64,000 bases of DNA from Nitrospirae bacterium MYbin3 (GTDB lineage: Bacteria; Nitrospirota; Thermodesulfovibrionia; Thermodesulfovibrionales; Dissulfurispiraceae): assembly GCA_002753335.1 (NCBI GenBank), contig PEAD01000002.1:1-64000 (forward strand), given 5' to 3'. A program made the translations under genes and the position numbers. Below the pieces are notes generated by a model. It did no database searches, was not told the origin of the DNA, and saw only the letters and a program-made list of their open reading frames with translations. Shown one piece after another: positions 47,456 to 52,054 of the stretch (the stretch's first letter is position 1; each line of letters starts with the position of its first letter).

Positions 47456-48619
47456 CTAAAGTCTTCTCCTGAACATAGCGCAGAAGGTTTCTAAAAATTT
47501 CTCGATGAAAGGCCTATTTTTCCATTCATCGAGATTTATTTTTTGAGCCTTTTTAATATCCTCTTCAAAAACCCCGGCCATTTCGCTGCCAAAACTTTTG
47601 TCATAAATCCCGACATTCCCCTCGTCGTTGTACCGGAGGGACTGGAAATCGAGATTTGTTGACCCGATAATGCTCCAGCAGTCATCAAACAGAAATGTTT
47701 TTGCATGCAGGATTTCTCCTTGGTAGGCATAAATTTCGATACCCGCCTTCAACAGTCTTGCAAACAAGGCTTTTCCTGCATATGAAGCAACAGGCACATC
47801 GCTTACATCTGGAACGATTAACCTTACTTTTACGCCGCGCCTTACAGCTCCTTCGAGCGTTTCGAGCATTCTTTTGCTTGGGATAAAATATGCGGTGGTC
47901 AGCGATATACTTTTTGTGGAGTTGTTTATGCTGTGATACAAAAGTTTTCTCATTCTGCGGCGGCTTCGTATGGATGACACAAAAACCGGAATTGCGGCTA
48001 TCACTGACTGACTGTTTTTGTTGTTCGCTATTTCTGAATGGTTGTTTGGTATGGAGTTGCCTCCCCAGAGGCGCCAACTTTTTTCGAAATGTGTAAACAG
48101 GTCTTGGACAATTGCACCTTTAATCATCACTCCTGTGTCACGCCATCCGCGGCCCTTTATTCGGAGGTGAAAGCCGCTGTATTCGTTTGCTACGTTCAAA
48201 CCGCCGGTGAATGCCTTTTCCCCATCTATTATTAGCAGCTTGCGGTGGTCTCGGTGAACATAATGGCCGGGGCGGGTCCATTTAAATGGGCGTGATGCCT
48301 TTATCTGAACGCCTGCATCAGCTAGCTCATGCCAGAACTGGATTGGTGTTTTAAATGAGCCGAAATGGTCATAAAGCAAATATACTTGGACGCCTTCTTT
48401 GCTTTTTTGTTTTAGGATGTTTGCAAGTGAGGTTCCAGTTTCGTCGTTTCTGAAGATATAAAATACTAGGCAGATGAATTCCTTTGCATTTTGAACAGCC
48501 TCAAAGATGCTTTGAAAAGACTCTTTGCCTTTCCATAAAAGCTTTATGTCGGAGGCATTCGAAAAATCAGCTCTAAGAATCTCTTCTATCTGTGAAATAG
48601 AAAAGTTTTCGCATTTCAT
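47456..48619 (-). CDS. Phospholipase D family protein, cardiolipin synthase-like
   Basis: A 387-residue protein with two HxKx4D motifs, DHRKLLIIDG with GGLN (about residues 129-150) and HAKTFLFDDCW with GSTNLDFQSL (about 307-330). This is the two-domain PLD layout. Without the two N-terminal membrane helices of ClsA it looks more like ClsB. It probably joins phosphatidylglycerol with another glycerophospholipid. Substrate inferred. Confidence 0.86.
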   Translation of the reverse strand: MKCENFSISQIEEILRADFSNASDIKLLWKGKESFQSIFEAVQNAKEFICLVFYIFRNDETGTSLANILKQKSKEGVQVYLLYDHFGSFKTPIQFWHELADAGVQIKASRPFKWTRPGHYVHRDHRKLLIIDGEKAFTGGLNVANEYSGFHLRIKGRGWRDTGVMIKGAIVQDLFTHFEKSWRLWGGNSIPNNHSEIANNKNSQSVIAAIPVFVSSIRSRRRMRKLLYHSINNSTKSISLTTAYFIPSKRMLETLEGAVRRGVKVRLIVPDVSDVPVASYAGKALFARLLKAGIEIYAYQGEILHAKTFLFDDCWSIIGSTNLDFQSLRYNDEGNVGIYDKSFGSEMAGVFEEDIKKAQKINLDEWKNRPFIEKFLETFCAMFRRRL

Positions 48620-49092: not shown

Positions 49093-49617
49093 ATGATAAT
49101 AGAATCTAAGTTTCGCACACAATTTGTAGTTAAGTATATAAGCATAGTTTCATTCGGACTTCTCGTAATACTGCTTCTGCTTTTTCTTGGTCTGCCGAAG
49201 GCAACCATACTTAACTACGGCGCTACGCTCTCATCTTTTTATGATGCAAATAAATTTCTGCCTATGCTGCTGATTGCTGCATTTGCAATAGACTCTCTGA
49301 CTATACCTCTTACGGTTGCGGTTATAGCTGTCCTTGCATCCCACAAAATTGCAGGACCGATTTATCGTATGCAGCAATTTATCAACGATATGGCTAATAC
49401 GAGAAAAGCCCGGCATATAAAGTTCAGGAATCATGACCAACTGCAAGAGACAGCAGATGCGCTAAATACTATGATTAGGGACCTCGAAGGAAAGATGGAT
49501 GCTATTTATGTGGCCCACAGGGAGTTTGAAAGTGCGCGGTTGGGTTCTGCCTCGCCTGACGAACTGAAGATGAAGGTGGATAAGATTGAAAAGGCTATCA
49601 ATAGATTCAGTTTTTAA
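49093..49617 (+). CDS. HAMP-domain membrane protein without output domain (1)
   Basis: A 174-residue protein: membrane helix 1 (about residues 12-34), short periplasmic loop, helix 2 (about 52-76), then one HAMP domain (SHKIAGPIYRMQQFINDMA, followed by FRNHDQLQETADALNTMIRDLE) and a coiled-coil tail. No kinase, methyl-accepting or cyclase domain follows. I start at ATG 49093 (AAGGACGG upstream). It overlaps the next gene by 32 bp, so it is made together with a seven-haem cytochrome. A membrane partner or redox-linked signalling role is inferred. Confidence 0.78.
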   Translation: MIIESKFRTQFVVKYISIVSFGLLVILLLLFLGLPKATILNYGATLSSFYDANKFLPMLLIAAFAIDSLTIPLTVAVIAVLASHKIAGPIYRMQQFINDMANTRKARHIKFRNHDQLQETADALNTMIRDLEGKMDAIYVAHREFESARLGSASPDELKMKVDKIEKAINRFSF

Positions 49618-50377
49618 ATGGTTTTTTGTTTTTGCGGTTATTGTTTTCATGCCGCTCATTATTACGGCAAAGAAAACAGTGCATAATTTTGACGGCAAAT
49701 GCGACACTTGTCATATGTCAACTCCACCCGATGGCAGACACTTTGTGAAGGAAATAGATTTTCTCTGCATACCGTGTCATCCGCAGACAGGACCTTCACA
49801 TCCTTCTGGGATTAAGCCTTCCATGAAGCCTCCTGCTGGGTTTCAGCTCGATTGGGCAGGGAGGATGACATGCTCAACATGTCACGATGTCCACGGTCAA
49901 AGCGAATCTCTGCTTAAAGGTCAAAAGCCTGGCAAGATGTTCTGCTTTAAGTGCCACAAAGGGCTTGATACCAGCCACAGCTTATTGCCGGAGAAGCTTC
50001 ATACAAGAGAAAATCTGGATGTTACAAAGATGAGCTTTGCTGTTACCAATACCGGCTCCGATATAGACAGGACATCAAAAGAATGCCTTGGATGCCATGA
50101 CGGCGCACTCGGCACCTTAGCTGATGTTAGCGCAAATGTAGGTTCGGGCATCTGGAATCACGGCAATGGGGTCTCGCATCCCATCGGTGTGGACTACATG
50201 GATTCATATCGAAGAAAGGGCAAGCTTGTTCCTATTCACTCGGTTAATTCTGCGATAAAATTTTATAACGGAAAGGTTGGCTGCGGTAGCTGCCATAGTG
50301 TTTTTGCGGGAGATAAATTCAAGCTCGCATTGCCTATGAAAGGCAGTGCGCTCTGTTTTGCGTGCCACAACCTGTGA
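49586..50377 (+). CDS. Seven-haem c-type cytochrome
   Basis: A 263-residue exported cytochrome of the doubled-CXXCH type: CDTCH, CIPCH, CSTCH, CFKCH, CLGCH, CGSCH and CFACH, seven haem sites. An N-terminal hydrophobic stretch (residues about 11-28) either is cleaved or anchors it to the inner membrane. TTG start at 49586 with AAGGTGG 6 nt upstream, overlapping the first HAMP gene by 32 bp; a second HAMP gene follows after 18 bp. It should carry electrons in the periplasm. No oxidoreductase is encoded alongside. Confidence 0.88.
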   Translation: MKRLSIDSVFKWFFVFAVIVFMPLIITAKKTVHNFDGKCDTCHMSTPPDGRHFVKEIDFLCIPCHPQTGPSHPSGIKPSMKPPAGFQLDWAGRMTCSTCHDVHGQSESLLKGQKPGKMFCFKCHKGLDTSHSLLPEKLHTRENLDVTKMSFAVTNTGSDIDRTSKECLGCHDGALGTLADVSANVGSGIWNHGNGVSHPIGVDYMDSYRRKGKLVPIHSVNSAIKFYNGKVGCGSCHSVFAGDKFKLALPMKGSALCFACHNL

Positions 50378-50395
50378 GCCAGGGGGATAAATAAA

Positions 50396-50977
50396 TTGAC
50401 TGAGCCATATAAAAGGAAACACTATTTTATCAATAAAAAATTTCAGGGCAAGTTCGCTGCCCTCTTTCTGGTTGTAGGTCTTATCGTAACCCTTTCAACA
50501 ACGATAATCATCTGGTCTCTTTCTGTCGAGGAACTCGAAAATTTTCTATACAGGTCGCATCTTCCGAAAATATCACCATTGGATATAGTTATCCCTATAG
50601 CGCTCAAATCGATTGCTATAGGTGGAGTTGTGCTTTTGCTTGTATCCTATTTGCTGACGAATTTTATCTTTTGGAGAATTTCAAAAAGACTTAAAGCCTT
50701 TGATGATGCGGTGCTGCAGATAGGTAAAGGAGACCTGAACCTTCAACTTCCTATTGAATCCCTTCAGGAAGTGAGCGGTGCGTTTAACAATATACTTCAA
50801 CTTATTGAAACTCTTAAATCCGATCTCTCTCATCTGGCTTTAATTCAGCAAAAACTCGGCGCAGCGGTTGAGAAGGCTGGTCAAAACCCGGCCTGCACTG
50901 AAACTCTCAAGCAGATAGAGTCTTTGAGCAGAGAGTTTGAAGCTAAGCTGGCTGTTTCCAAATTGACGCTCGAATAA
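50396..50977 (+). CDS. HAMP-domain membrane protein without output domain (2)
   Basis: A 193-residue protein: helix 1 (about residues 18-42), short periplasmic loop (VEELENFLYRSHLPKISP), helix 2 (about 63-89), HAMP domain (RISKRLKAFDDAVLQIGKGDL, VSGAFNNILQLIETLKSDL), and a coiled-coil tail. Again there is no output domain. TTG start with AGGGGG 8 nt upstream. It is distinct from the first HAMP protein in sequence but the same in design. Converges with the TlpA-like gene 3 bp away. Confidence 0.78.
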   Translation: MTEPYKRKHYFINKKFQGKFAALFLVVGLIVTLSTTIIIWSLSVEELENFLYRSHLPKISPLDIVIPIALKSIAIGGVVLLLVSYLLTNFIFWRISKRLKAFDDAVLQIGKGDLNLQLPIESLQEVSGAFNNILQLIETLKSDLSHLALIQQKLGAAVEKAGQNPACTETLKQIESLSREFEAKLAVSKLTLE

Positions 50978-50980
50978 TTG

Positions 50981-52054
50981 CTATTCGAAACTGGCCTGCA
51001 AATTCAGCTCAAGCGCTTTACGGTAATCTGCCGAGGAATTCTTAAGCATAGATTTTAGCTCGAACATTTCGGCTCTTATCATATGAAACTGCTGTTTATC
51101 TTTGATTTCGGCATATGCGGCATCAAAAAGCTTGATCCCATCGTTCAGATCAATTTTAAAACTGGTCACATAAGCATGATAAAGTGATGCGAGCGGATAA
51201 TCACCGATGCTCACAGCCCTCTCCGTAAATGAAAATGCCTCTTGAAATCTTCCGATTCTCGCTAACAAAAAGCCCAATTCTGCCGGCACACTGGGGTCAC
51301 CAGGAGCTATCGACTGCGCTTTTCTTAAAACAGCTTCGGCAGCATCTTTTCTGTTTTCGATAGAATAAAGGTTTGCAAGCACTATATATGAAAGTACATA
51401 AGCGGGGTCTATTTCTATTGCTCTTGCAAGTAAAGGGTAGGCAACTTCATAGCTTTTTTTCTTGATATATTCAACGGCAAGGCTTGCATCCGAAACCGCC
51501 TGAGGTTTTGGAACATGGGCTGTTTTATGTATATGAGCAGGCATGTCTCCAGCCAGATTTTTCAGGTAGTCAAACATATTTTCAACCCCTGTCAAAGGAT
51601 AGCCTGGGAGCTCATACAGCACCTTGCCGCCAGAAATTACAACTGTTGAAGGTATTGCAACAACGTCATAAGCTGCAAAAGTCTTCAACCCCTCATCGAT
51701 CAGAGCCGTGAACGAAACATCAAGGTTATGCAAAACTTTTTTTATATGCTTGATATCTTCAGGAGTTATGTTTTGATGTTCGACATTAACCGCCACAACA
51801 TTGACACCCTTTGATGAATACTTGCGGTAAAATTCATCGAAGCGTTTGAGCGCTGATTCTGAATGCTCGCTTTCTGTGGACCAAAAAAGCAGCACCAATA
51901 CCTTTCCAGACATAAATTCCGAAATGTTTGCAGGTTTGCCATCACCGTCCTTCAAAGAAAATTCAGGGGCGGCTGCGCCTTTCTGGATAAGCCCATACGC
52001 GGGACTGCAGAATAGAATGACAAAGAGAAAACAAAATGAAAATCCTGATCGCAT
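50981..52054 (-). CDS. TlpA-like thioredoxin-fold protein with TPRs, lacking the CXXC site
   Basis: A 357-residue secreted protein: signal peptide (to about residue 20), thioredoxin/AhpC-TSA-like fold (residues about 26-165; APEFSLKDGDGK, VLVLLFWSTESEHSE, VVAVNVEHQ, IPSTVVISGGKVLYE), and C-terminal TPRs (about 190-340). At the place where TlpA has WCxxC the sequence is WSTESEHS, so both cysteines are missing and disulphide chemistry is impossible. It may be a chaperone or binding module. Last gene of a leftward cluster. Confidence 0.8.
   Translation of the reverse strand: MRSGFSFCFLFVILFCSPAYGLIQKGAAAPEFSLKDGDGKPANISEFMSGKVLVLLFWSTESEHSESALKRFDEFYRKYSSKGVNVVAVNVEHQNITPEDIKHIKKVLHNLDVSFTALIDEGLKTFAAYDVVAIPSTVVISGGKVLYELPGYPLTGVENMFDYLKNLAGDMPAHIHKTAHVPKPQAVSDASLAVEYIKKKSYEVAYPLLARAIEIDPAYVLSYIVLANLYSIENRKDAAEAVLRKAQSIAPGDPSVPAELGFLLARIGRFQEAFSFTERAVSIGDYPLASLYHAYVTSFKIDLNDGIKLFDAAYAEIKDKQQFHMIRAEMFELKSMLKNSSADYRKALELNLQASFE

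Follow-up and report, generated by a model that had tools for sequence, protein, structure and literature searches.

Two output-less HAMP proteins beside a seven-haem cytochrome: a gene trio recurring across bacterial phyla

What do two HAMP proteins that lack an output domain do on either side of a seven-haem cytochrome? HAMP domains are familiar as the relays of receptors and generally serve in signalling; outputs normally attach to the C-terminal coil after the HAMP. Multihaem cytochromes and HAMP domains are each well known. In the window (the whole 64,000-nucleotide stretch of DNA analysed, from a genome, G000, of 2.93 Mb and 93.7% completeness), three consecutive genes bring them together. 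A preliminary description of this DNA had pictured a membrane complex in which redox change of the cytochrome is sensed by, or anchored through, HAMP helices, possibly with mixed coiled coils formed with another signalling protein. What stands of this picture is a conserved HAMP-cytochrome-HAMP unit that probably forms a membrane complex; redox sensing through the HAMPs and mixed coiled coils are not supported. At the inner membrane, the trio probably keeps an electron carrier in place and may also use it for sensing.

Architecture of the three proteins

HAMP1, the heptahaem cytochrome c and HAMP2 are encoded head to tail on the + strand of the window, in the arrangement first described. The genes are as tightly packed as was then noted, with an overlap of 32 nt between HAMP1 and the cytochrome gene and a gap of 18 nt between the latter and HAMP2. 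The features are as follows (TM, transmembrane).

49093-49617, + strand: HAMP1 (ATG start at 49093, stop at 49617, 174 aa), a two-TM protein with a HAMP domain and a helical tail, no output domain
49129-49191, + strand: HAMP1 TM1, residues 13-33, approximate, from hydropathy and model
49192-49275, + strand: HAMP1 periplasmic loop, residues 34-61, including a Tyr42 that is invariant in 57 sequences
49276-49338, + strand: HAMP1 TM2, residues 62-82, approximate, from hydropathy and model
49339-49500, + strand: HAMP1 HAMP domain, residues 83-136, with a conserved SHKIAGP start (profile-profile E 1.8e-6)
49586-50377, + strand: heptahaem c-type cytochrome (TTG start at 49586, stop at 50377, 263 aa), seven CXXCH motifs
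49601-49666, + strand: cytochrome N-terminal hydrophobic helix, residues 6-27 (model), membrane anchor or signal sequence
50396-50977, + strand: HAMP2 (TTG start at 50396, stop at 50977, 193 aa), a two-TM protein with a HAMP domain and a helical tail, no output domain
50414-50446, + strand: HAMP2 conserved cytoplasmic N-terminal motif, residues 7-17 (R7 96%, Q17 100%)
50666-50827, + strand: HAMP2 HAMP domain, residues 91-144 (profile-profile E 2.2e-8)

The 5' side of the trio holds ATP synthase genes and a gene for a phospholipase-D-type protein, and no cytochrome. The latter gene (phospholipase-D family, cardiolipin-synthase-like; 47456-48619, - strand) separates the ATP synthase operon from the trio. 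On the 3' side, a convergent gene (50981-52054, - strand) encodes a redoxin/AhpC-TSA domain fused to TPR repeats, which is not a cytochrome. No other multihaem gene is found within 5 kb of the window copy, and a promoter scan at the trio gives no clear excess over shuffles.

HAMP1 and HAMP2 share one build: two hydrophobic helices, then a HAMP domain and a helical tail, after which the chain ends. As single sequences searched against Pfam, HAMP1 has no HAMP match and HAMP2 stays below threshold (E 0.013). PF00672 is matched at E<0.01 by 6 of 17 HAMP1 relatives and 7 of 18 HAMP2 relatives. When the post-TM2 parts of the family alignments are compared, profile to profile, with the HAMPs of neighbouring histidine kinases, both families match (E 1.8e-6 for HAMP1 and 2.2e-8 for HAMP2, against 0.1-0.55 for column-shuffled controls). 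In the PDB, the HAMP2 profile matches Tsr, HtrII (E 4e-10), Af1503, and NarQ, and the HAMP1 profile matches Tsr and HtrII amid unrelated coiled coils. The AlphaFold model of HAMP1 displays TM1, then TM2 continuous with AS1, followed by the connector, AS2, and the tail (pLDDT 88.8). The VIA-align matches of this model are generic helical ones, the Aer2 poly-HAMP and the Af1503 HAMP among them (Z 5.4-5.7), and are therefore not taken as proof of a HAMP domain; Foldseek against the PDB returned nothing significant for the two predicted models, those of the cytochrome and HAMP1. Both proteins carry an AS1-connector-AS2 segment with the PF00672 family pattern right after a TM helix. HAMP1 and HAMP2 are HAMP-domain proteins, as the preliminary description had recognized.

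The absence of an output domain is likewise confirmed. HAMP1 and HAMP2 end 38-49 residues past the HAMP, their relatives are mostly 170-215 aa long, and a domain profile search found neither an EAL/GGDEF domain nor a folded periplasmic output domain in either of them. Only ~25-28 residues separate the two TM helices, and a periplasmic sensor domain is absent. Both paralogues retain the HAMP core. Across the two proteins, conservation is highest at the HAMP2 N-terminus (RRxYxIxxxxQ; mean entropy 2.23) and lowest in the C-terminal coil (2.98-3.01). At 60%, the TM helices show no conserved His or other polar residue.

The cytochrome passes the doubled-CXXCH families PF09699 and TIGR01905 (57 bits for a cut-off of 20.6, and 54 for 25.2, respectively). 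Besides its seven CXXCH motifs it has seven further conserved His (H33, H72, H103, H131, H139, H192, and H198), which are exactly the His outside CXXCH that are invariant in 19 sequences of the window's order. Across 64 wider sequences from several phyla, five of these His are invariant, H192 is present in 59, and H131 in 50, the sequences without H131 carrying Pseudomonadota titles. Since seven CXXCH motifs and seven other His are conserved in the order, all seven haems are probably bis-His ligated; a count of seven candidate distal His for seven haems points to an electron carrier and not to an enzyme or a gas sensor. In the model, the N-terminal helix ends about six residues before the ligand H33; small-x-small motifs, as for signal-peptide cleavage, are found in some relatives only. 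The nanowire cytochrome OmcE is among the best matches of PDB profile searches (E 5e-8 and 1.1e-9) and is the only row returned by VIA-align (Z 4.2, 112 aligned residues, rmsd 4.3). This match is partial and weak, and the window cytochrome differs by its seven haems and its likely membrane helix.

Spread and descent of the trio

The gene order is widely kept. Once identical copies are removed, 86 family cytochromes have sufficient flank, and 76 of them have HAMP genes on both sides; the ten others have a HAMP gene on one side only (five) or none (five), at least one of these exceptions (L123) being a gene-calling miss. The two Nitrospinae-titled loci are among the five cytochromes without flanking HAMP. 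The order is also kept in most further family members examined beyond the 86. The three genes thus stay together in relatives, and a chance neighbourhood is ruled out by the 76 of 86. The possibility that the HAMP genes are truncated chemoreceptors of a single strain is dismissed by the same synteny, by the lack of a second HAMP2 copy in the window's own genome, and by the age and constant length of the families.

The trio spans at least five bacterial phyla. A contig scan of genomes yields 80 loci, with titles of Nitrospirae, Aminicenantes, Acidobacteria, Deltaproteobacteria/Desulfobulbaceae, Geopsychrobacter, Burkholderiales, Gammaproteobacteria, Magnetococcales, and Nitrospinae. The cytochrome is found in 42 of 296 genomes of the phylum, in 24 of 136 genomes of the order of Geopsychrobacter, and in 3 of 200 and 2 of 198 genomes of two Pseudomonadota orders. 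Many genomes of the window's order carry HAMP-cytochrome-HAMP, in flanking contexts that vary. All 26 trio genomes of this order have at least seven doubled-CXXCH matches, versus 63 of 121 others, a comparison with some circularity, since the matches of the trio are counted too. One genome (G021) holds two separate trio copies (L100 and L101), one of them beside 4-, 21-, and 9-haem cytochromes.

In a tree of 158 HAMP proteins, the HAMP1s form one side and the HAMP2s nearly so (one and two label changes, respectively). This separation indicates, at the sequence level, that HAMP1 and HAMP2 are old paralogues issued from an old duplication. Patristic distances correlate between the cytochrome and HAMP1 (r 0.89), the cytochrome and HAMP2 (0.90), and HAMP1 and HAMP2 (0.93). 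The three agreeing gene trees fit an obligate trio, although common vertical descent alone also yields such a correlation. The three genes are under purifying selection, with dN/dS values of 0.09, 0.08, and 0.12 against a same-genus relative, which are approximate as dS is above 1.

In the order of Geopsychrobacter, some genomes harbor the trio and others a HAMP-less cytochrome, so the cytochrome can function without the HAMP proteins. In the cytochrome tree, the midpoint root has HAMP-bearing members on either side, and those without HAMPs are dispersed; HAMP loss thus looks repeated. The HAMP-less cytochromes of this order adjoin a PKD/seven-haem protein, a thrombospondin-type-3-repeat protein, and a peptidyl-prolyl isomerase (PPIase). 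The HAMP-less seven-haem relatives at L233, L234, and L242 have a PPIase on one side. The L233 locus, checked with Pfam, encodes a thrombospondin-type-3-repeat protein and a 1135-residue PKD protein with seven CXXCH, and genes of similar size are present in L234 and L242.

Neighbouring genes and related HAMP modules

Another multihaem gene lies within 5 kb in 33 of 55 trio neighbourhoods, versus none of 11 for a related, polysaccharide-type HAMP module; in the other 22 trio neighbourhoods, as in the window, there is none. Frequent neighbours are 11-haem cytochromes with NHL proteins, as well as 13-haem and 5-haem genes. Some of the 11-haem/NHL loci add PPIases or long Pfam-less proteins that look like beta-barrels. 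These sets resemble the Uet pathway, which comprises an undecahaem cytochrome, an NHL protein, a PPIase, and a porin (PMC10734462). Many trio relatives adjoin the 11-haem cytochrome and the NHL protein, and the set is partly present around some of them; as listed in that paper, however, Uet names neither a HAMP protein nor a heptahaem cytochrome, and its gene set is absent next to the window trio. A tetrahaem gene directly follows HAMP2 in 18 of 73 trios, and in 24 of the 73 HAMP2 is not followed by a gene on the same strand.

A fixed kinase, receptor, or cyclase partner was also sought in these neighbourhoods and rejected: two-component genes are near the trio in only 15 of 55, and GGDEF and HD-GYP genes are sporadic. 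At L178 (6309-7676) and L243 (8852-10126), a two-TM GGDEF protein, a possible separate output, is encoded directly after HAMP2, and in L119 an HD-GYP response regulator follows HAMP2.

HAMP proteins of the same build are also found away from heptahaem cytochromes. In exopolysaccharide clusters of the window's order, one is encoded between a SurA/PpiC-like protein, which has an N-terminal hydrophobic helix, and a small secreted HExxH-like protein. This module is present at L068, L070-L072, L078, L080, L082, L083, L086, L088, L093, and L096, many of them in exopolysaccharide clusters, and its HAMP proteins form one supported group in the tree of 158. At L085 (6001-7797) and L087 (3126-4814), a single output-less HAMP protein of this family comes after a five-haem cytochrome. 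The N-terminal motif of HAMP2 is common to both types, as RRxYFIxxxxQ in the polysaccharide type and in a looser form beside the five-haem cytochromes. As the PPIase/HExxH module and the five-haem module carry same-family HAMPs, the output-less HAMP proteins of this family pair, as judged from gene context, with different periplasmic partners. The paralogous module hints at a general use of such proteins as membrane platforms.

Platform or relay

The reading preferred here, to which a probability of about one in two is given, is that the trio forms a heteromeric inner-membrane complex, in which a HAMP1/HAMP2 bundle holds the cytochrome as a periplasmic docking platform for electron transfer. 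The products of the three genes would make up a single complex, with HAMP1 and HAMP2 most likely assembled as a heterodimer (or a 2+2 bundle) through contacts of the TM helices and HAMP coils. The short loops on the periplasmic side, that of HAMP1 with its invariant Tyr, would keep the cytochrome at the periplasmic face of the membrane. The cytochrome would act as an electron carrier with seven probably bis-His haems and, in many relatives, may exchange electrons with the tetrahaem partner and with larger outer or extracellular multihaem cytochromes. The HAMP pair would thus serve mainly as a membrane platform for a periplasmic carrier, with the cytoplasmic N-terminus of HAMP2 as the probable docking site of a partner in the cytoplasm or the membrane.

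Such a platform is favoured by partners that are exchangeable, a C-terminal coil that is poorly conserved, the lack of a constant signalling gene, and the electron-transfer neighbourhoods. Against it, HAMP domains usually signal and the HAMP core is kept here, the window copy and 22 of 55 relatives have no other multihaem gene nearby, and HAMP-less cytochromes exist. Signalling is favoured by this kept core, by the conserved HAMP2 N-terminus, and by the precedents of sensory rhodopsin II/HtrII (PMC5292967) and LapD (PMC4359373). The present data do not separate the two.

In a possible but doubtful alternative, the trio is a redox sensor with a separate output. A change in the redox state of the cytochrome would move the TM helices together with the HAMP1/HAMP2 bundle, and this would reach a kinase, receptor, or cyclase encoded elsewhere via the cytoplasmic coil or the HAMP2 N-terminus, much as sensory rhodopsin II acts on HtrII. 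That system likewise pairs a cofactor-bearing membrane protein with a separate two-TM HAMP protein, and HtrII is matched by the HAMP2 profile. HtrII, however, possesses a second HAMP and parts for methylation and CheA docking (PMC5292967); the trio has two HAMP paralogues and no output. The HAMP core kept in both paralogues, the strong conservation of the HAMP2 N-terminus, the two-component genes near 15 of 55 trios, and the GGDEF and HD-GYP genes after HAMP2 in three loci speak for such sensing. However, no signalling gene is constant, about a third of the trios (24 of 73) have no same-strand gene after HAMP2, the coil that would form mixed coiled coils is the least conserved part, and seven bis-His haems far exceed the needs of a sensor. 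Furthermore, the paralogous HAMP accompanies haem-free proteins, the PPIase and the HExxH protein, and some distant cytochromes are HAMP-less, which argues against redox sensing as the core role. In a broader and equally tentative form, an output-less HAMP heterodimer would convey the redox state of the periplasmic haems through the inner membrane to a separate partner in the cytoplasm; the trio would then exemplify a broader class of output-less HAMP platforms with an exchangeable periplasmic partner (a heptahaem or five-haem cytochrome, or a PPIase with an HExxH-like protein).

Control in the opposite direction, from the cytoplasm outwards, is unlikely. By analogy with LapD, a cytoplasmic input on HAMP1/HAMP2 would switch the docking, assembly, or release of the cytochrome. 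LapD, which acts on the periplasmic LapG, is indeed a two-TM HAMP protein controlling a periplasmic partner (PMC4359373), the PPIase and HExxH-like protein of the paralogous module look like periplasmic outputs rather than sensors, and the HAMP2 N-terminus is conserved. LapD, however, has a cytoplasmic cyclic-di-GMP receptor and a folded periplasmic output domain, and neither HAMP protein has a cytoplasmic ligand-binding domain or such an output domain. Least probable is a new type of membrane quinol dehydrogenase, in which the anchored cytochrome would take electrons from quinol at the membrane face and the HAMP proteins would form the quinone pocket: like NrfH, CymA, and NapC, the cytochrome has a single N-terminal hydrophobic helix before its multihaem domain, its first haem ligand lies a few residues from this helix, and it shows a weak profile similarity to NrfH (E 6e-6 and 0.003), but it reaches 26.3 bits, far under the curated NrfH cut-off of 134.2, it differs from these proteins by its seven haems and HAMP partners, the HAMP-protein TM helices have no conserved His or polar residue, and, with seven distal His conserved, no haem stands out as unusual.

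The preliminary description knew of no system of this form, and a search of the open-access literature found no description of a HAMP-heptahaem cytochrome-HAMP trio either. The trio seems undescribed; output-less HAMP proteins as such are already precedented by Af1503 of Archaeoglobus fulgidus, called a non-signalling TM protein (PMC3585426). Like HAMP1 and HAMP2, Af1503 is a membrane protein that ends in a HAMP without a cytoplasmic output, and its HAMP is matched by the HAMP2 profile; it differs in that PMC3585426 links it neither to a cytochrome nor to a second HAMP protein. In the trio, a multihaem cytochrome has kept two HAMP paralogues devoid of input and output domains at its side in at least five phyla, often amid genes of the extracellular-electron-transfer type. 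If the complex proposed above is real, it would be a missing inner-membrane component of such pathways or, alternatively, a new coupling of redox state to the cytoplasm, either of which is directly testable.

Two further gene contexts have been observed. At L116, L128, L130, and L152, the trio lies directly 5' of a GspE-type ATPase gene and GspF-like and pseudopilin-like genes, as in type II secretion or a pilus. At L240 (9914-11317) and L241 (6303-7697), a protein with a trypsin-like domain and a predicted TM helix is encoded directly after HAMP2.
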